A stretch of DNA of 21,550 nucleotides. Source: a virus. The notes beneath the pieces were generated by a model. It searched no databases. It worked only from the letters and a program-made list of their open reading frames with translations, and was not told where the DNA came from. Positions 2,153 through 18,269 of this stretch are shown here, piece after piece. Location of the stretch: the IMG/VR virus record IMGVR_UViG_3300036985_007994, positions 1 through 21,550 of that record; one strand, given 5' to 3'. Position numbers and translations under genes: made by a program. Positions within the stretch are counted from its first letter, which is position 1. Each line of letters starts with the position of its first letter.

Positions 2153-3282
2153 GAAACCCTCCAGAGTTCTAAAGCTCGACCATACATGCTAGCAGTAGTG
2201 TTTGTCGCCGCAGCTTCTATTGACATATCAAGTGAAAATAACGCGACTGATCCAGTCACTCTGACATATGCAAAACCAGACCTCATATGTCTCTCGTTTG
2301 CGGCGACATCTGATACTTCTTCTACGATATCATAACTAGCAGAATTCAAAATAAAACAACGCGCCCTAAACGACTGCGCCGTAGTATTACAACGATATGT
2401 ATAAGACCAACCTAAGCGATAAATTCCGGCGTCTAAGTTAGACGCCGTCATATTGAGTGCTGACAAATAAGTCGTTGTTGAGTTATGAAAAGGAACAGCA
2501 TAAGATCCGGATACAAACCAAAAGTTTTTTCCGAACCACCCAGTTGAACCAGACGTAACCTGACCTTTTGAATTAACCTGTATGTCGCCATACGTACCGG
2601 CTGTACCAGTATTAGCAAGATCGAGAGTGACTGTTGTTCCAGCACCACCGTCAGTCAATGTTAAACTGCTACCAGATGTTGTCAGCACACGTTCGTTTGG
2701 TAAAGAAGCCGTAGCGCTCAAAAGAACATATGTAGCATTCGAATCAGCGCTGCTAGCGCCCGCAGAAGAACTGATTATGATCTGACCATTTGATTGTGAC
2801 ATGACTGCAATGCCAGTCCCAGCAACCAAATAAGACAGGTTTGGCCCAACACGTTGCAATGATCCACTAAGACCAGCTGATGCAGACACTGGACCAGTGA
2901 ATAAACTTCCCGTAATCGTTGCGACAACGTTATCATTTACACCGACAGTAACAGTTGAACCCCCGTCAGTTATACGAACTCCTGTTCCGGCAGTAAGCAC
3001 GCGTTCGTTTGGCAAAGATCCAGTTGCATTTAAGGTAACGTAACTTGCATTTGAATCAATTCCAGACAGACCTATCCACGATGTATTCGTTTCATTACGT
3101 ACGTAAAGAACGCCAGAAAGTGAATTCCAAAACAATTCACGAGCAAACGTTGCCGTTGGAAACAAATTGCCACCAGGAATGACTAACACTCCGCCTAAGC
3201 TACGACTAAATTCATGTCTTCCGGAAACAACGCGAGTCGAAGAATCGCCGATAAAGAGATTGTAAACACCTAAACCACTCAT
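2149..3282 (-). CDS. Tail fibre protein, paralogue A
   Basis: This 377-aa protein is a low-complexity beta-rich fibre. After an N-terminal module (GGVLVIPGG, ELFWNSLSG, LYVRN) it has two copies of a repeat of the form LPNERVLT followed by LTDGG and TVTL/TVGV (about residues 85-120 and 190-225). Between them lies SASAGLSGSLQRVGPNLSYL. The C-terminal ~100 residues (from TASNLDAGIYRLGWSYTYR to ALELWRVS) are closely matched by the next gene upstream, at well over half identity by eye, so the two arose by duplication. GGAAGG at 3291-3296, inside the 3' end of the paralogue, provides the ribosome-binding site. Likely a trimeric fibre or receptor-binding protein. Confidence 0.85.
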   Translation of the reverse strand: MSGLGVYNLFIGDSSTRVVSGRHEFSRSLGGVLVIPGGNLFPTATFARELFWNSLSGVLYVRNETNTSWIGLSGIDSNASYVTLNATGSLPNERVLTAGTGVRITDGGSTVTVGVNDNVVATITGSLFTGPVSASAGLSGSLQRVGPNLSYLVAGTGIAVMSQSNGQIIISSSAGASSADSNATYVLLSATASLPNERVLTTSGSSLTLTDGGAGTTVTLDLANTGTAGTYGDIQVNSKGQVTSGSTGWFGKNFWFVSGSYAVPFHNSTTTYLSALNMTASNLDAGIYRLGWSYTYRCNTTAQSFRARCFILNSASYDIVEEVSDVAANERHMRSGFAYVRVTGSVALFSLDMSIEAAATNTTASMYGRALELWRVS

Positions 3283-4410
3283 TCAAGAAACCTTCCAGAG
3301 CTCTAGGGCTCGGTCTAAAATGTGTAATGCCGTAGTACCGGTTTCATTCGATATGTCTAACGAAAATATGCCAGTTGAACCAGTCACTGTGACATATGCA
3401 TATCCGCTACGCATATGTCTCTCGTTTGCTCCGACATCTGATACTTCTTCTACGGTATCATAACTCGCAGAACCATAGATCACGCAACGTGCTCGGAATG
3501 ATACTGCGTTTGAAAGGTTACGATACGTATAAGACCATCCAAAACGGTAAATTCCAACATCAAGATTTGACGCTGTTAATGCGATAGCTGACAAATAGTT
3601 CGCTGACGCATTTGAAAAAGCTTGAGCTGCTGAACCGGTGATAAACCAAAAATCTGAACCAAATGGCGCAAGAGTTCCTGATGTAACTTGACCTTTTGAA
3701 TTAACTAGTACGCCACGCCCATGGTAGATATTGGCAGAACCGGTGTTAGCGATGTCAAGAGTGACCGTTGAACCGGCACCTCCATCTGTGAGCGACAAAC
3801 TACTGCCAGACGCAGTCAACACACGGTCATTTGGAATATTGGTATTATCCTGAAGAACAATGTAACTTGAATTAACATCAGCACCGGTGCTACCGGTGAT
3901 AACAGTTCCAGTAATCGTTACTTGCCCAACGGAGTTAGTAGTTAGCGTAATGTTATTACCGGCTAGCAAATAAGGAAGATTTGGCCCAATTTGCTGCAAC
4001 GATCCACTTAATCCAGCGGACGCTGACACTAGACCGGAAAATGTACTTCCCGACAGCATTGCTATAACGGCGTTATGCGCTGAGACAGTGATCGTTGAAC
4101 CTGGACCGCCGTCAGTCATTAAAAATCCCAGACCGGTAAGTGCCCTAGCTGAAATCGAACTAGTAGCTGAAGTTACAATGAATTTCCCGCCACCAATTAG
4201 ATTCCAATTCGTGTTCGCGGCGTTACGTACATAAACTGCGTCAGATCCTGAGTAAAAAAGGATCTCTTGCCCAACTGATGAACCAGTGAAAAGCGATCCG
4301 GAAGATGGAATTTGCAACACACCACCTGCAAAATGATCATACGACCACATGCCCGAAATGAGCTTGTCTTCGTTTTCATCGTAATCAATGATGATGTAAT
4401 TCTTCATCAA
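3283..4410 (-). CDS. Tail fibre protein, paralogue B
   Basis: This 375-aa protein is a paralogue of the fibre protein that follows it. Both share the GGVLQIP/GGVLVIP N-terminal module, the SASAGLSGSLQxxGPNLxYLxAG block, a VLTASGSSLSLTDGGAGSTVTL repeat split over about residues 195-220, and a ~100-residue C-terminal domain containing EEVSDVGANERHMRSG. The ATG overlaps the preceding stop (ATGA). Differences between the two are concentrated in the middle and near the C-terminal loops (for example TGTTALHILD against AATNTTASMYG). This fits diversification of surface loops after duplication. A fibre role is inferred from composition and context, and the receptor is unknown. Confidence 0.85.
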   Translation of the reverse strand: MMKNYIIIDYDENEDKLISGMWSYDHFAGGVLQIPSSGSLFTGSSVGQEILFYSGSDAVYVRNAANTNWNLIGGGKFIVTSATSSISARALTGLGFLMTDGGPGSTITVSAHNAVIAMLSGSTFSGLVSASAGLSGSLQQIGPNLPYLLAGNNITLTTNSVGQVTITGTVITGSTGADVNSSYIVLQDNTNIPNDRVLTASGSSLSLTDGGAGSTVTLDIANTGSANIYHGRGVLVNSKGQVTSGTLAPFGSDFWFITGSAAQAFSNASANYLSAIALTASNLDVGIYRFGWSYTYRNLSNAVSFRARCVIYGSASYDTVEEVSDVGANERHMRSGYAYVTVTGSTGIFSLDISNETGTTALHILDRALELWKVS

Positions 4411-10895: not shown

Positions 10896-11129
10896 TTACC
10901 TTCCTGAAATAAGGGCCTGGATAGCTGTCTTGACGCGCTCCTGTAATTCAGCCGGGAGCGCAGACAACAATACGTACGTTTCAGCGCGCTGAGAATTTAT
11001 TGGCACACCTCCTTGAACGTAATCAGAGCTTGGCGTTACGATCGCTCTAAGCGAAATTGGCGGAAGACCAACTCGCGAGTTAACAATCGGTTGATATAGG
11101 TCTACTAGATTCTTTCGTTGATCGCTCAT
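10896..11129 (-). CDS. Small hypothetical protein, 77 aa
   Basis: This 77-aa protein has a Pro-rich middle (VGLPPISLRAIVTPSSDYVQ) and an amphipathic C-terminal helix (LPAELQERVKTAIQALI). The ATG overlaps the preceding stop as ATGA, with AGGAAAG about 15 bases upstream, so translation probably depends on coupling. Two bases separate it from the next gene. It has no recognisable family and could be a small virion or regulatory protein. Confidence 0.7.
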   Translation of the reverse strand: MSDQRKNLVDLYQPIVNSRVGLPPISLRAIVTPSSDYVQGGVPINSQRAETYVLLSALPAELQERVKTAIQALISGR

Positions 11130-11328: not shown

Positions 11329-11562
11329 TTAATTTTCAAGACAAAGCATGCAATCAATATTGGTACCTTGCATATAGATTTGTCGACACAACGTGCTAAT
11401 ACCATTTACGACAGCTAAACAGTAAATCGATTGACAATATTGTAACCAATCAATATCAGTTTTTTTGCTTGAGATAACCAAACACGTTTGATCAAAAAGA
11501 AGAATCAATGACCCGGGTGTTATGTCTTTGGCTTGAACTAAGCAAGGTTTTCCTAACATCAT
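11329..11562 (-). CDS. Small cysteine-containing hypothetical protein, 77 aa
   Basis: The ATG at 11562 overlaps the preceding stop as ATGA; an in-frame TTG at 11571 is a weaker alternative. The protein has seven Cys spread singly (KPCLV, QTCLV, YCQS, YCLAV, LCRQ, DCMLC), not in CXXC pairs apart from the last group, and a beta-rich pattern (PGSLILLFDQTCLVISS). It may be a small beta-barrel. A metal-binding role is possible but not supported by spacing. Function unknown. Confidence 0.6.
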   Translation of the reverse strand: MMLGKPCLVQAKDITPGSLILLFDQTCLVISSKKTDIDWLQYCQSIYCLAVVNGISTLCRQIYMQGTNIDCMLCLEN

Positions 11563-11819
11563 GCGATCCAAGCATTAACAACATCGCCGTCTCTTACGTC
11601 GACATTTACACGCGTCATTGATCTGGATGTATTGCTATGTTTCAAGGCAACATTATCAAGTCTAGACACACGCATTGAAAATCCAAACGCTTTAACTCGA
11701 GCAAACGCTGCGGCTAATTGAATTCCTTTTATTAGGGCCAACAACGCTACAACGTTAGCTTGTTTCACTGACGACCTACGACGATCCTTTGCACAACTCA
11801 CATTACTCACAAAAATCAC
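11559..11819 (-). CDS. Small basic hypothetical protein, 86 aa
   Basis: This protein probably starts at a GTG 3 bases after AAAGAAAG, although internal GTG codons could also serve. It is basic, with an amphipathic helix (VVALLALIKGIQLAAAFARVKAF) and a beta end (MTRVNVDVRDGDVVNAWI). Arg and Lys are frequent at the N-terminus (KDRRRSSVK), so nucleic-acid contact is possible but unproven. It begins 33 bases beyond the mature tmRNA 3' end and may share its transcript. The start is uncertain. Confidence 0.55.
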   Translation of the reverse strand: MIFVSNVSCAKDRRRSSVKQANVVALLALIKGIQLAAAFARVKAFGFSMRVSRLDNVALKHSNTSRSMTRVNVDVRDGDVVNAWIA

Positions 11820-11831
11820 ACACTTTCTTTG

Positions 11832-11849
11832 TTACGCATCAGAGCGTAA
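11832..11849 (-). promoter_or_regulatory. Hairpin abutting the tmRNA 3' end
   Basis: TTACGC-TCTGAT-GCGTAA forms a perfect 6-bp stem directly after the CCACTA that ends the tmRNA acceptor. No U-tract follows, so it is more likely a 3' processing or protecting stem than a standard terminator. Confidence 0.4.
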
Positions 11850-11852
11850 TAG

Positions 11853-12207
11853 TGGAGGTAGCGAGGAATTGAACCTCGCGTCCGCGAAACATTTTCCTAG
11901 CGTTTCATCCACAGGCTTGACCTACATTTCAATCGCCTTAAGGTTAGGCTTAAGCTGCTACGTTTACGTCTTCAACAGCGTCAGACGTTTTCGTTTTTAC
12001 ACCCGACGGTGTTTTGCTAGCATCACTAGCGTTACTCAACATTCTTTTCTTAGGTCGTTGAGAACCAGTCCACTTCAAGCCGCGAGGCTATCAGCGAATG
12101 AGCCGTTGTCGTTGGCATCTATACGTCAATTGGGTTTTAAACCGGACCCTCTTGCACCGGCACCTGCAACACCAAGCATCCGATCCACGTCGAAACCTGG
12201 TACCCCC
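11853..12207 (-). ncRNA. ssrA: Phage-encoded tmRNA (one-piece)
   Basis: This is a transfer-messenger RNA of 355 nt, which rescues stalled ribosomes and tags the unfinished protein. The 5' GGGGGTA (12207-12201) pairs with the 3' TACCTCC (11860-11854), giving the G3-U70 alanine identity pair, with A73 as discriminator. GGTTTCGACG near the 5' end and GGACGCGAGGTTCAATTCC near the 3' end match tmRNA consensus blocks. An H-type pseudoknot PK1 is visible at 12132-12160: CCGG/CCGG and GGGT/ACCC. TAGAT sits just before the resume codon GCC (12116), and the tag reads ANDNGSFADSLAA, then TGA (12077-12075). CCA is not encoded; CTA stands in its place. The T-stem can form 6 bp (GCGAGG/CCTCGC) instead of 5. 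Short hairpins follow the tag, as in other tmRNAs. No convincing promoter was found just upstream. Confidence 0.95.
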
Positions 12208-12309: not shown

Positions 12310-12438
12310 TCACTTCTTGATATATGAATTTTTCATGCCGGTCTTTGGCATCTTCGAGTGAGGAGCTCGCGACTTTCTAGGGTAATGAAAGGTCTCTTCA
12401 TGTTCGCTGGCATGCATCATGGCTTTCGCGAAAGCCAT
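12310..12438 (-). CDS. Displaced 3' reading frame or small separate ORF, 42 aa
   Basis: This open frame starts at the ATG inside the second copy of a 26-bp tandem repeat and reads MAFAKAMMHASEHEETF, then HYPRKSRAPHSKMPKTG and a basic end, stopping at TGA 12310-12312. It lies +2 relative to the 141-aa gene. If one repeat copy is removed, that gene reads straight into it. It may be the original C-terminus of that gene, a coupled small gene, or chance. The two differences between the repeat copies are both synonymous in the MAFAKAM frame, which argues that both copies have been translated in that frame. No clear Shine-Dalgarno sequence. Confidence 0.4.
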   Translation of the reverse strand: MAFAKAMMHASEHEETFHYPRKSRAPHSKMPKTGMKNSYIKK

Positions 12439-12467
12439 GTCTTCATTGCTTTCGCAAAAGCCATGTC
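12416..12467 (-). repeat. 26-bp imperfect tandem duplication at a gene 3' end
   Basis: Copy 1 (12467-12442) and copy 2 (12441-12416) are 26 bases each and share GACATGGCTTT and GCGAAAGC, differing at T/C, A/C and the last base. The unit length is not a multiple of 3, so the second copy is read in another frame by the 141-aa gene. Copy 2 also contains a perfect 20-base palindrome (12419-12438), centred on CGCG. Confidence 0.85.
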
Positions 12468-12842
12468 TTTTGCATTATCACCGGCCTCTAAAATTTCAGG
12501 AAAAGATGACACTTTGTCATAATCTGATACAGAAGTCTGTACCGTAGAAAGCTCTTGTTCGTCAAGTTTAAATCGCTCTGATAAAATTCTTTTTTGATTA
12601 TCAAGCCATTGATGAACCTTGCTAGGTTCAACCTGAATGTCTGTCATCGCAACAGAACTTTGTTGCGATGATTGAGTCAGTCCAACACTAAGCTTTGATC
12701 GCAACGATTCAATCGTAGAAACCTGTTCATCAACCCAACGACGATGTTCTATCGTAATTGAATTCGGATTTGAAACAAGTTTAGCAAGAGCATCATGACA
12801 CATGATATATGCTGTCAGCATCTCTTCTTTTGTGAATTTCAT
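12417..12842 (-). CDS. Hypothetical helical protein, 3' end altered by repeat
   Basis: This is a 141-aa protein from the ATG at 12842 (a TTG two codons earlier is the alternative). It is mainly helical: KFTKEEMLTAYIMCHDALAKL, then RWVDEQVSTIESLRSKL, a Gln/Ser linker, and WLDNQKRILSERFKLDEQEL. The last in-frame residues, KTWLSRKP, come from the second copy of a 26-bp tandem repeat read in a shifted frame. Without the repeat the protein would continue another ~35 residues into a basic, His-rich tail that stops at 12310. It is therefore either truncated or remodelled at the C-terminus. The upstream region is A-rich (AAAGAAAATATTGAAA) without a good Shine-Dalgarno sequence. No family recognised. 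Confidence 0.65.
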   Translation of the reverse strand: MKFTKEEMLTAYIMCHDALAKLVSNPNSITIEHRRWVDEQVSTIESLRSKLSVGLTQSSQQSSVAMTDIQVEPSKVHQWLDNQKRILSERFKLDEQELSTVQTSVSDYDKVSSFPEILEAGDNAKDMAFAKAMKTWLSRKP

Positions 12843-12873
12843 TTTCAATATTTTCTTTGCTGAAAGAAAAACA

Positions 12874-12972: not shown

Positions 12973-13233
12973 TTAGAACTGCGACTTACCCGTTGAGGCA
13001 TAGTGCTTGCTCAAGAGACGGTACATCGTACGTGCCTCACGGCCATCAAGCTTGACCTGATCTCCATCAGGAAAATCGATGAAAACATTCGTGCTATCGT
13101 TCTTGGTATCAGTGGTTGCTGCCATCACGATTGAGCCAGAGTCTCGCGACCTGGTCTCTGTTCGCGTCTTGCCGCGGAGATCGATTCGAGTGGAGATACG
13201 TGCGTTACGGTTCTGATTGTTATAGTTGCTCAT
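12973..13233 (-). CDS. Small abundant-type protein, 86 aa (unknown)
   Basis: This 86-aa protein starts at an ATG with an AAGGAAC Shine-Dalgarno sequence. The first ~30 residues are Asn/Arg-rich and disordered (SNYNNQNRNARISTR), then VFIDFPDGDQVKLDGREA and a helix (ARTMYRLLSKHYA). It resembles a small nucleic-acid- or virion-associated protein, but no family is recognised. It is isolated: a 5' hairpin precedes the Shine-Dalgarno sequence and a strong terminator follows the stop, so it probably has its own transcript. Its codons look more G/C-ending than those of neighbouring small genes and resemble the capsid gene, which suggests high expression. Confidence 0.8.
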   Translation of the reverse strand: MSNYNNQNRNARISTRIDLRGKTRTETRSRDSGSIVMAATTDTKNDSTNVFIDFPDGDQVKLDGREARTMYRLLSKHYASTGKSQF

Positions 13234-14086: not shown

Positions 14087-14099
14087 AACTTTAAGTATA
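14084..14099 (-). promoter_or_regulatory. Leaderless-type promoter: TATACT, 7 nt, ATG
   Basis: TATACT (14094-14099, minus strand) is followed by TAAAGTT and the ATG of the zinc-ribbon gene. The box overlaps the last codons and the stop of the gene before it. Confidence 0.5.
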
Positions 14100-16184
14100 T
14101 TTCTCGAACACAAATATCGGTTCGGAACGTTCTACGGAAATCCCGCGCTTTCGAGAGAAATGGTCTGTTTGAAGCGTTAACTTCCATGTGTCGACCCTTA
14201 ACAAGCCCGCTTCTTTTGCCGCATTTAACACAGATTCTGAATGTCGCTTATCAACATTAAATGCTGCCTTTGCGCCAGGTTTTAGAACCCTAGCAACGTT
14301 CTTCATAGTCGGCACAAGATAGTGTTCATACCATTGCGTTTCAGATGGATAATCTCTCCAACATTGTCCGGGTTCATCCCAATAACGTTCTAAATCAAAA
14401 TAAGGCGGGCTCGTAAACACGGCATCGCAATAAGCTTCTGGGATCCATGCAGCAAGATCACCCTCTGAACCAAGCTTCTCAACATTCATCGCAAGGTTTC
14501 GGTGTTCCTCTTGGATACTATCGATTAAATTCCAGAGATCTGTATGAACAGATGACGCCGGCTCACATGCCATATAACATCCTTCAGGATATGCCGCTGC
14601 AAAACCAAGCAACCTTGCGCCAAAACCTGCAGACGGGTCCCAAACAACGGGATCTTTGATATTGTCACCGATCAAAGACTTCCAAACTTGTGCAGCGATC
14701 ACTGGCTTGAACCATGACACTGCCTGCCTTTGAACTACAAATCCGCGACGAGTCTGGAATAGAGATATATCGAAATGTTCGTTGCAAGAAATGTGTTTCG
14801 TTCCTTCCCAAGATTCATCACTTACGTTGTATTCATAATCCTTTGAAACATTCAAGCCAAGACGATATCTGAGCACGCGTTCAAGTACTTTATCATCTTG
14901 AAAAGCAACAACTGGACCCTTACCTGCAGACCAAAAAGAACGCATCTTTGATTTAAGCCAAGCAGATCCCGGTGCTTTACTTCCATCAAAAACGTTATCT
15001 GTCGGCAATTTTCCCGGACCCAGATGCTTCCTTATGTCGGTTAGGGCTTCCCCTAAAGTGCCATCCAAGGGTGCATAGATCCATCCACGAAGGTCAACAT
15101 AGGCCCGGAGCAGGTCAATTAAGGCTGGAAGCAAGACTTTTTCTGTGTCATCCTTGCTTCCTTCTATGGGTTTTCCCGTGACTACATTGAAGTGCTTTTT
15201 GATCAACGCGTCTCTGTTAACAATGGCGATCTTATCATCTAATCTAAGCGCACCATCCTTCACGACAACACCATTTTCGACAACGTGATATGCGCATGCC
15301 TTGAGTTCATCGATCGACTTTGTTTCTCGCCATGCAGACTTTTCGTCGATCTTGATGAGATTGAGACCTTTATCGATTGCGATCTTACACTTCTTGAGAT
15401 CATTAGCTAAACTTTTAATTTGACTGACACCCCAATTGCTATTTCTGTCTAGACCGTGCCAATAGGAACCATCAAGCTCAATCATCAACTTTATCTCTGG
15501 GATCCAAGCATCACAACACCACGTTTTGCTTGTGAAGTTGAACCATTTACTCGCTTCAACGTTCGATTCAAAAGTTGCAACATGTTTAACGAATTCAATC
15601 TCAATTTTGCTTTGTTTGATATTTTCTCGCCTCATGTTTGCAAGACCAATTTTTCGACCGAACTCTTCTGTGAAGACTCGAGCTTTCCGGTCATCGCCTG
15701 CTTCACCTGACCATGACTTTACTCGAGACTCGTGCTGCAGCGTTTTGTATTCTTCATTAGCCCACAATGATTTGTGGTGTTCTTTAAAATCGAATTCACT
15801 ATTTGCCATGCCTTTAGTGACAGCAATTGAAATCTTTTTCGAGATCTCTTCTTTACGTTCTGAATAAGCACGTCGTATTGCATCATTTCGTTTTTTGAGC
15901 TGTTCCTCCGTGAACACGTGTTTCTTGACACGAAATCCAGTTGCATTGTGCCCTGAAATATAGTCGTTGAAACGATAATGAACTTTGTGCCAATTCACCT
16001 GTTTTTTACATCCACACTTACAAAGTGGAATTGAATTATTAGTGAAGTATTTGACTGTGTAACCTATGAGCCCGCCGAGCTCAACGTGCGCACGAGTGAC
16101 ATGATTCCCGAGTGAACTACGTGATTTGCAAATGCGGTCACACTCAAGACACGTCTGCTCTTTGTCTTCGATTCCAATACCCAT
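14091..16184 (-). CDS. Homing endonuclease-like / DNA methyltransferase fusion
   Basis: This 697-aa protein starts at the ATG at 16184; an upstream ATG (16223) would place the TATAAT box inside the gene. A C2H2-type finger (CLEC...HVTRAH, 12-33) is followed by a CKCGC...GHN knuckle (55-80) and a NUMOD3-like stretch (FTEEQLKKRNDAIRRAY, about 92-126). Next comes a VSR/PDDEXK-like nuclease core with CDAWIP and IELDGSYWHG (about 224-245). The second half is a DNA amino-methyltransferase: motif I DPSAGFGARLLGF (516-528) and motif IV TSPPYFDLERY (591-601). The first half resembles mobile phage endonucleases and the second half N6-adenine/N4-cytosine methylases. It lies alone between the capsid terminator and the zinc-ribbon gene. 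It may be a homing gene captured in frame, or one bifunctional enzyme that modifies and cuts DNA. Confidence 0.85.
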   Translation of the reverse strand: MGIGIEDKEQTCLECDRICKSRSSLGNHVTRAHVELGGLIGYTVKYFTNNSIPLCKCGCKKQVNWHKVHYRFNDYISGHNATGFRVKKHVFTEEQLKKRNDAIRRAYSERKEEISKKISIAVTKGMANSEFDFKEHHKSLWANEEYKTLQHESRVKSWSGEAGDDRKARVFTEEFGRKIGLANMRRENIKQSKIEIEFVKHVATFESNVEASKWFNFTSKTWCCDAWIPEIKLMIELDGSYWHGLDRNSNWGVSQIKSLANDLKKCKIAIDKGLNLIKIDEKSAWRETKSIDELKACAYHVVENGVVVKDGALRLDDKIAIVNRDALIKKHFNVVTGKPIEGSKDDTEKVLLPALIDLLRAYVDLRGWIYAPLDGTLGEALTDIRKHLGPGKLPTDNVFDGSKAPGSAWLKSKMRSFWSAGKGPVVAFQDDKVLERVLRYRLGLNVSKDYEYNVSDESWEGTKHISCNEHFDISLFQTRRGFVVQRQAVSWFKPVIAAQVWKSLIGDNIKDPVVWDPSAGFGARLLGFAAAYPEGCYMACEPASSVHTDLWNLIDSIQEEHRNLAMNVEKLGSEGDLAAWIPEAYCDAVFTSPPYFDLERYWDEPGQCWRDYPSETQWYEHYLVPTMKNVARVLKPGAKAAFNVDKRHSESVLNAAKEAGLLRVDTWKLTLQTDHFSRKRGISVERSEPIFVFEKYT

Positions 16185-16197
16185 ATCTAAGATTATA
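16182..16197 (-). promoter_or_regulatory. Leaderless-type promoter: TATAAT, 7 nt, ATG
   Basis: TATAAT (16192-16197, minus strand) is followed by CTTAGAT and the ATG of the endonuclease-methyltransferase gene. TTGATG lies 20 bases upstream of the box, too far for a good -35. The gap 16198-16338 otherwise shows nothing clear. Confidence 0.55.
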
Positions 16198-16338
16198 TAC
16201 CAAAGAACTAAAGAATTCATCAAGTCTTTGAGTTTAGACCCCTTAAAATGGTAAGTTTTATTCCCACTAAAGGTTATGCACTTTGTTTGAAATCATTGCG
16301 TGTTTATGATAAACTTCATTCAAGTTATAGAAACGACA

Positions 16339-16385: not shown

Positions 16386-18269
16386 TCAGATAATGTTCAT
16401 GTCGAGGACGGTAACTGTCCCGTAGAAGTCGCTACGGATCATCTTCTTACCATATCTCGTCATAACACCCTTGCGTGGAGTAAAGTCCTCCTGAGCAAAG
16501 ATCGTTGGAGTCACGATAAGCGGTACGTATGGAGCGTACACATAACCGGTCTCAAGGTAGCTTCCACCCTTGTAACCAACGAGGATCTTGTTCCTTGGGA
16601 AGTACGGATCCTTGTAAACCGTGAAGCGATTTGAAACAGTTCCGATCGACTCAGCACCGATTGTGAATGGCGAGCCAACCTGTCCTTCGCCGTCAAGCGA
16701 GAACTTTGGTTTGTACATCACTGAACTCTCAAGAATCGTGCAAACATCAGGTGATGTCACAATGAAGTTCGCTGATCCGCGCAAGGTCTTACGATGAATC
16801 GTGTTTGCTACGTCAATAACCGTTTCAACCAAGGTCTCGTACCACTCTCGGACGGTGCCTGTGAATGATGGACCAATGCTGAGGCTTGAAGCCAATGACT
16901 GAGCCTGACCAGTGAGCTTGTGAACGAATCGACCAGGAGCACGGCTCCAATACATGGTCGCTCCGTTTGCCTGTGTAACGAGATCATTCAAAATCTCGCG
17001 GTCGATTTCAAGTGCGATCTGCTCACTGAGGATGCTCGTAAGCTCGACCTCGGCGTCCATTGAATGATAAGCGTTAAGGTCTTGTGCAAGTTCTGGTGAC
17101 CAGCGAGCTCGGAGCTTTCGGCTTGTTGCAGTAATTGCAATAGACTCAATCTTAATGTCAATCTCTGGAATGACAGGAGAAGATGTTACGTTGAAGTCAG
17201 ACTCAAATGATGGAACCGTCAACGTTGCACCGGTAGAATCTCCAGCAACGAGTGAATCACTAATTGCCATTGAAAGTCTAGTCGTTGCCCCGAGAGCTGG
17301 CGTTGTAGAAGCGTTCGTAATCCTAAGAACAACCTGAATATGTGTTCCATTAAGTGGAGCCGGCGTAAACACCGTACCGTTCCAATTACCGCGCTTGTTG
17401 AGTCGACGAAGGTTCATTACACCAGCGCCACCTTGGTAGTTTTCACCCCAAGCAACAGCACCGTTCGTTGTTGCGAAACCGAACACTGCGATCTGCTCAA
17501 CGGCCATGAAGTCGCCGCGTGGAATGAACGTTGTAATCTGGGAAATTGTCAAGTGAGCAAACGTTACGTCAAGCGTATTAACACTCATGTCTGCTTCAAT
17601 CTGTGGATCGAATTGAAGCATTCGACCGTTGGTTCCAGTCATCATGCTTACTTCAGAAATCGTGAGACCGGCCGCCCAAGTGTTACCTTCAATGCCGCCC
17701 CAAGCGCCGACGTCAGCTAACGTTCCGGAAACACCCATTGTTCCTGAGTGCACCTTAGAATAACCAACGTTAACCAAGTCGTACATTCCGCCCGTTGCTA
17801 AAGAACCTGATTGGATTCCCTTGCCGGTTGGGTTGTTGTAAATCGACTGACCACTCTTGTACGTCTCTTCAGTATTTTCGTTTGCCTGACTTCCACCAAC
17901 GTTCGTTCCGTAGGTATAATCAAGATAGAAAATCAAGCCTGATGGCAACGACATTGGTTGCATCGAGACGATTTCATTTGCAACTAGTCCGCCAAAGACC
18001 CTTCGAACAATCGGGAATGCGATATTCGAAAAACCCTGGATCTGACCAGATGACGAAACAGATCCGCCACCAGTCGACAACGAGTTAGACTCACGAAGGA
18101 CCTGAGCTGCCTGGTTCTCAAGCAACTGAGACATAACCTCTCGGCGGGTGCCTTCAAGGCCACGAAGCAAGCCGGTTCGGCTCCACTTCTCTACAAGCCG
18201 CGTACGCTCTGCGCCAACGTGGCGATCTTTAATACCAGCAGTTAACTGGTCAAAATTGAAAAACTTCAT
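16386..18269 (-). CDS. Major capsid protein, T4 gp23 type
   Basis: This 627-aa protein is longer than T4 gp23 (about 521). The N-terminal part has QLLENQAAQVLRESN (49-62) and then FPIVRRVFGGLVANEIVSMQPM with PSGLIFYLDYTYG (about 85-121), the defining gp23-like blocks. The C-terminal part has SEQIALEIDREILNDLV, then KILVGYKGGSY, GYVYAPYVPL and RYGKKMIRSDFYG. The long middle (about 122-330), rich in Gly, Thr and Asn, is probably an inserted surface domain. T4-type prohead proteases cut after L/I-x-E, so LRE at 58-60 is a likely cleavage site and the N-terminal ~60 residues a removable propeptide. This is inferred from T4. The gene follows the scaffold gene and ends before a strong terminator. 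The upstream ribosome site is A-rich (AAAGAAAG), 8 bases before the ATG. Confidence 0.95.
   Translation of the reverse strand: MKFFNFDQLTAGIKDRHVGAERTRLVEKWSRTGLLRGLEGTRREVMSQLLENQAAQVLRESNSLSTGGGSVSSSGQIQGFSNIAFPIVRRVFGGLVANEIVSMQPMSLPSGLIFYLDYTYGTNVGGSQANENTEETYKSGQSIYNNPTGKGIQSGSLATGGMYDLVNVGYSKVHSGTMGVSGTLADVGAWGGIEGNTWAAGLTISEVSMMTGTNGRMLQFDPQIEADMSVNTLDVTFAHLTISQITTFIPRGDFMAVEQIAVFGFATTNGAVAWGENYQGGAGVMNLRRLNKRGNWNGTVFTPAPLNGTHIQVVLRITNASTTPALGATTRLSMAISDSLVAGDSTGATLTVPSFESDFNVTSSPVIPEIDIKIESIAITATSRKLRARWSPELAQDLNAYHSMDAEVELTSILSEQIALEIDREILNDLVTQANGATMYWSRAPGRFVHKLTGQAQSLASSLSIGPSFTGTVREWYETLVETVIDVANTIHRKTLRGSANFIVTSPDVCTILESSVMYKPKFSLDGEGQVGSPFTIGAESIGTVSNRFTVYKDPYFPRNKILVGYKGGSYLETGYVYAPYVPLIVTPTIFAQEDFTPRKGVMTRYGKKMIRSDFYGTVTVLDMNII

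Follow-up and report, generated by a model that had tools for sequence, protein, structure and literature searches.

The window analysed here is an entire IMG/VR virus record of 21,550 bases (IMGVR_UViG_3300036985_007994). A gp23-type major capsid protein is encoded on its minus strand at 16386 to 18269 (PF07068, E = 1.3e-77; phrog_138, E = 7.2e-75), and the record also encodes an M15 peptidase endolysin, which together indicate that it is a fragment of a T4-like phage. The phage origin that an earlier note had proposed for this DNA from its letters alone is thus supported by the capsid gene and by the virus record itself. The named isolates nearest by gp23, Microcystis phage Mel-JY01 and Flavobacterium phage immuto, are only 35 to 43% identical, and neither a near blastn search with the window nor a distant one with the tmRNA gave a DNA match to an isolate phage among 50,697 phage records.

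A tmRNA (ssrA) gene lies at 11850 to 12207 on the minus strand, which also encodes gp23 and the rest of the recognised genes, with gp23 located 4.2 kb upstream. The earlier note had placed this gene at 11853 to 12207; the interval agrees with the match, which runs from 12207 to 11850, and the strand, which had been omitted, is minus. All neighbouring genes described here are on the minus strand as well. An 86-aa gene at 12973 to 13233 and a 77-aa gene at 10896 to 11129 serve as the upstream and downstream syntenic markers (tblastn synteny), the former lying 5' of the tmRNA in relatives. A small gene at 12417 to 12848 occupies the slot of a gene of relatives with the pattern MKLN..KELLALHNLL, a likeness seen by eye only, and another small gene (86 aa), just 3' of the tmRNA at 11559 to 11819, has homologues in the same place in relatives. 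The ORF that precedes the tmRNA carries at its 3' end (12418 to 12466) the palindrome CATGGCTTTCGCGAAAGCCATG followed by the near-repeat GCTTTCGCAAAAGCCATG. A 710-aa ORF at 14091 to 16223 combines a zinc-finger-like N-terminal part with a stretch resembling VSR/EDxHD (MIELDGSYWHG) and, at the C-terminal end, an N4/N6 DNA methyltransferase (PF01555, below the cut-off), and it looks like a homing-endonuclease/methyltransferase fusion. Its N-terminal part gave no match in the PDB, and a related ORF sits right after gp23 in many relatives.

Structure of the tmRNA gene

The Rfam model RF00023 matches the gene over its full length (model positions 1 to 374 of 374) with a score of 67.8 bits (gathering score 47) and an E value of 9.6e-25, so the covariance-model search suggested earlier as a check returned a significant match. 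It is the sole Rfam match in the 21,550-base window and the sole tmRNA in the record. The match is contiguous and in standard order, which indicates a one-piece tmRNA; a two-piece (permuted) form was rejected, since circularly permuted halves are absent. The call of a complete one-piece molecule therefore stands, and all of the parts listed for it in the earlier note were found.

The mature RNA is expected to run from 12207 to 11853 and to end in a CCA added after transcription. The 5' strand of the acceptor stem (GGGGGUA, 12201 to 12207) forms seven of seven pairs with the 3' strand (UACCUCC, 11854 to 11860), and with discriminator A73 at 11853 and G3-U70 in the 7-bp stem, the molecule has the alanine identity of a tmRNA. 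PK1 (12132 to 12161) is an H-type pseudoknot upstream of the resume codon, and both of its helices pair (S1, GCCGG/CCGGU; S2, GGGU/ACCC). The motif AUAGAU precedes the tag frame and the resume codon is GCC. The frame itself, ANDNGSFADSLAA with a TGA stop at 12075 to 12116, is short and open, with an Ala-type resume codon and a hydrophobic end in AA before the stop. At 13 aa, this tag is longer than the enterobacterial ANDENYALAA type, as had been pointed out, but the difference has little meaning, since the homologous tags have 13 to 15 aa and those of many bacteria 11 to 15 aa. Directly 3' of the tmRNA end, at 11832 to 11849 on the minus strand, a hairpin (TTACGC/GCGTAA with the loop TCTGAT) occurs with no T-run right after it, which is perhaps a processing or termination signal. 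Single-sequence folding of the tmRNA gave a z score of -1.65 by a method that is weak for pseudoknotted RNA.

The T-arm (11861 to 11879) has a canonical 7-nt loop, UUCAAUU (consensus UUCRANN), and a stem of 6 bp (GCGAGG/CCUCGC), which is 1 bp above the usual 5 bp. Compared with the relatives, the extra pair has an A on the 5' side and a U on the 3' side and is thus a compensated A-U insertion; its absence from the nearest relatives was counted against function. Because of the 6-bp T-stem, the acceptor/T stack has 13 bp rather than 12, a length known from tRNASec. An alternative with an 8-bp acceptor stem and a 5-bp T-stem was rejected, as it would require a C-C pair in the acceptor stem. A strict survey covered 66 distinct tmRNA tRNA-like domains, a small sample chosen by the ANDN tag; 61 T-arms had the 5-bp/7-nt form, and the 6/7 form occurred only in the window and in one bacterial sequence (L203). 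The latter, at about 2937 to 3290 on the plus strand of a Bacillota MAG, is a one-piece tmRNA with a 6-bp T-stem, a GGCAGUG loop and the tag ANDNGSELALAA, which indicates that a 6-bp T-stem is no bar to being a tmRNA. The exact T-arm of the window had no match in IMG/VR.

ARAGORN reported no tmRNA in the window, probably because the T-stem has 6 bp instead of 5. The program reported 10 of the 12 homologues described below, and its failure on the window is not counter-evidence, since it also misses the phage tmRNAs of L091, L092 and L265.

Homologues in related phages

Relatives by gp23 were taken from IMG/VR, and 70 whole records were searched with RF00023. A tmRNA scored over the cut-off in 12 of them, one per record, which gives, with the window, 13 tmRNAs (the homologues, L082 to L093, are all from uncultivated relatives). 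According to the gp23 and tmRNA coordinates, every one of the 13 is encoded on the same strand as gp23, 1.9 to 4.2 kb downstream of it. In nine records, where both markers were recognised, the tmRNA lies between the homologues of window genes 12973 to 13233 and 10896 to 11129, and eight relatives (L023, L024, L025, L027, L033, L034, L043 and L047) keep both flanking markers and have no tmRNA. Presence of the tmRNA is clustered on the gp23 tree (4 changes versus 10.0 in shuffles), which indicates that the gene is old in the clade, with a few events of either loss or gain. On that tree, the nearest relatives of the window with enough sequence all carry a tmRNA. The window tmRNA shares 41 to 62% identity with its homologues in a MAFFT alignment, and these have the genomic region, the flanking gene families and the ANDN tag family in common with it. 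They have 5-bp T-stems, in contrast to the 6 bp of the window, and some have non-canonical T-loops; CCA is encoded in some of them and, as in the window, not in others.

Loss of the acceptor pairing and tag frame in close relatives had been named beforehand as grounds for abandoning the call; both are retained in the homologues. In the seven distinct acceptor stems pairing is 100%, and five of the seven pairs show changes on both sides; even the stem of L088, which has changed to GCGCUGG/CCAGUGC, retains G3-U70 and A73. In PK1, changes on both sides were found in 16 cells versus 5.8 in shuffles. These counts for acceptor and PK1 ignore the kinship of the sequences; slid controls fail clearly. 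The tags of the relatives begin with ANDN, have 13 to 15 aa and all end in A, most of them in LAA or IAA, and their middles vary (e.g., ANDNGTAPLALAA, ANDNGFADDVRLAA and ANDNSSLPLSLAA). The exact tag of the window was found neither in IMG/VR nor in 84,980 GTDB species genomes. Covariation of the acceptor and PK1 together with conserved tag ends is, as judged from sequence, the pattern of a working tmRNA.

Several homologues and other phage tmRNAs show peculiarities of their own. Two records with identical tmRNA and gp23 (L089 and L090) have a tag, ANDNGIADYALVA, that ends in LVA and not LAA. In a 140-kb phage record (L086, 1501 to 1856, plus strand), the acceptor is GGGGCCG/CGGUCCC with G73, so that G3-C70 and G4-U69 replace the alanine identity (G3-U70, A73), while CCA and the tag ANDNAFADVPRAIAA are unaffected; this loss may be a small assembly error. 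The one-piece phage tmRNAs of L091 (1501 to 1876, minus strand), L237, L240, L265 and L268 have the T-loop GGCRGUA, which is also present in alphaproteobacterial two-piece tmRNAs, and in all five AG replaces GG in the D-loop, an apparent covariation at the elbow. Further odd T-loops are UGCAAU in L092, UGCGAUC in L297 and AUCAUUC in L089. In a 309-kb relative (L067, 14497 to 14925, plus strand), a DUF559/VSR-like nuclease (PF04480, E = 0.0017, below the cut-off) lies directly 3' of the tmRNA gene and may be a mobile neighbour of it.

Function and competing explanations

The full-length Rfam match, the homologues in 12 of 70 related records, the synteny, the covariation of acceptor and PK1, the tag pattern and the clustering on the gp23 tree make it highly likely that the window encodes a functional phage-borne tmRNA, inherited within an uncultivated T4-like clade at a fixed site in the structural region downstream of gp23. 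The suggestion that the gene looks functional is therefore probably right. Besides the missing T-stem counterpart in relatives, three observations were counted against function. CTA follows A73 and CCA is not encoded, so that CCA would need adding; none of the other tmRNAs above the cut-off has a lower Rfam score; and no clear promoter was found, as exact T4 late TATAAATA sites are absent and sigma-70-like sites are at chance level. A terminator scan at the tmRNA likewise gave nothing above chance.

The low score, the 6-bp T-stem, the ARAGORN miss and the patchy distribution (eight relatives have the flanking genes and no tmRNA) could alternatively reflect early decay of a host-derived, hitch-hiking and inactive passenger gene. 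This explanation is improbable, since decay would not yield a T-stem change compensated on both strands, the acceptor, G3-U70, A73, PK1, tag frame and stop are all intact, and the acceptor and PK1 covary across relatives. The altered elbow geometry also raises the idea that the phage RNA binds host SmpB or ribosomes and hampers host trans-translation, the odd T-arm impairing delivery. A decoy-type role was suggested earlier for the DS6A RNA, which consists of the tRNA domain only, and a tRNA-like-domain molecule strongly inhibits tmRNA (PMC4131195). A tag frame, resume site and PK1 would be needless in such a decoy, yet they are kept in the window and its relatives, and this role is less probable still. 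The ssrA gene is a common integration site of phages. A host ssrA carried over by a temperate phage integrating there (such integration is discussed in PMC9004378) is nevertheless scarcely credible as a source, since the window gene is full-length and no 3' fragment, and its location inside a T4-like structural gene cluster, at a site conserved in 13 records, contradicts it.

As a functional tmRNA, the RNA would be transcribed together with the minus-strand genes, and its location near the capsid gene hints at transcription late in infection, although no late promoter motif was found. Host RNases would process it, a host enzyme would supply the CCA, and host AlaRS would charge it with alanine through G3-U70 and A73. 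Host SmpB and EF-Tu would then bring it to ribosomes that have stalled on broken or cleaved mRNAs in the infected cell, where resumption at GCC would append (A)ANDNGSFADSLAA to the stalled chain. An LAA end is an established ClpXP-type degron of E. coli ssrA tags. By analogy, that of the window tag should act as a ClpXP-type degron in the phage's host and direct the product to host ClpXP-type proteases, and the released ribosomes would become available for translation of the phage, to its benefit.

The earlier note had supposed that the gene might supplement or replace host trans-translation. A search of 26 phage records, many of them fragments and one of them the 309-kb relative with a tmRNA, revealed no SmpB, so that host SmpB, like host AlaRS, would be needed; an SmpB elsewhere in the phage genome may have been missed. 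SspB was likewise absent from 13 related records. On present evidence, a supplementary role is the most likely, and replacement is unsupported. A more elaborate role, which we consider rather unlikely, is that the late-region tmRNA of this clade puts fast-changing, phage-specific tags on late stalled chains, with the 13-bp stack of the window, as in tRNASec, tuning how EF-Tu and SmpB handle it in comparison with host tmRNA.

Relation to known tmRNAs

The window tmRNA resembles bacterial one-piece tmRNAs (RF00023; E. coli, Myxococcota and others) in its full-length match, its G3-U70/A73 domain, PK1, the resume codon GCC and an Ala-rich tag ending in LAA. It differs from them in having a T-stem of 6 bp instead of 5, in being phage-borne and in a tag that is absent from the 84,980 species genomes. 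The best bacterial match was to Myxococcota in a limited, tag-selected sample, and this similarity is too weak to name a host.

Phage tmRNAs were listed previously for Bacillus phage G and mycobacteriophages Bxz1 and Wildcat (PMC4131195, 2014), ssrA has been annotated in Stenotrophomonas myophages (PMC8928761), and tmRNAs were found in huge phages, some of which also have SmpB (PMC7162821). As in phage G, Bxz1, Wildcat, Menderavirus and the huge phages, the window has a complete ssrA in a phage genome, but the Menderavirus (Stenotrophomonas) gene lies elsewhere, in a cluster of tRNAs that precedes a gene for ribonucleotide reductase. No nucleotide match to the window tmRNA occurs among the 50,697 phage records. 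Methylophilales phage Melnitz is likewise a T4-like myophage with its own tmRNA, which is two-piece and permuted and is accompanied by a glutamine riboswitch and an early promoter (PMC9004378); that of the window is one-piece, is located among structural genes and has no riboswitch match in Rfam.

The description of phage tmRNAs as uncommon holds for isolates, with 402 of 18,146 phage genomes in 2021 (about 2% of sequenced phages; PMC9004378), but not for IMG/VR, in which a tag-pattern scan gave at least 120 stretches and 12 of the 70 related records carry the gene. The window gene is thus a well-supported further example and not a new system. What is mildly new is that orthologs occupy a fixed site in the structural region and that matched relatives lack the tmRNA, together with the 13-bp stack. 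Comparing these orthologs near the capsid operon with their tmRNA-less counterparts is a natural way to ask why a phage would carry a ribosome-rescue RNA. In addition, annotation that relies on ARAGORN overlooks some real phage tmRNAs (that of the window and two homologues), which indicates that prevalence figures published on this basis are probably minimum values.
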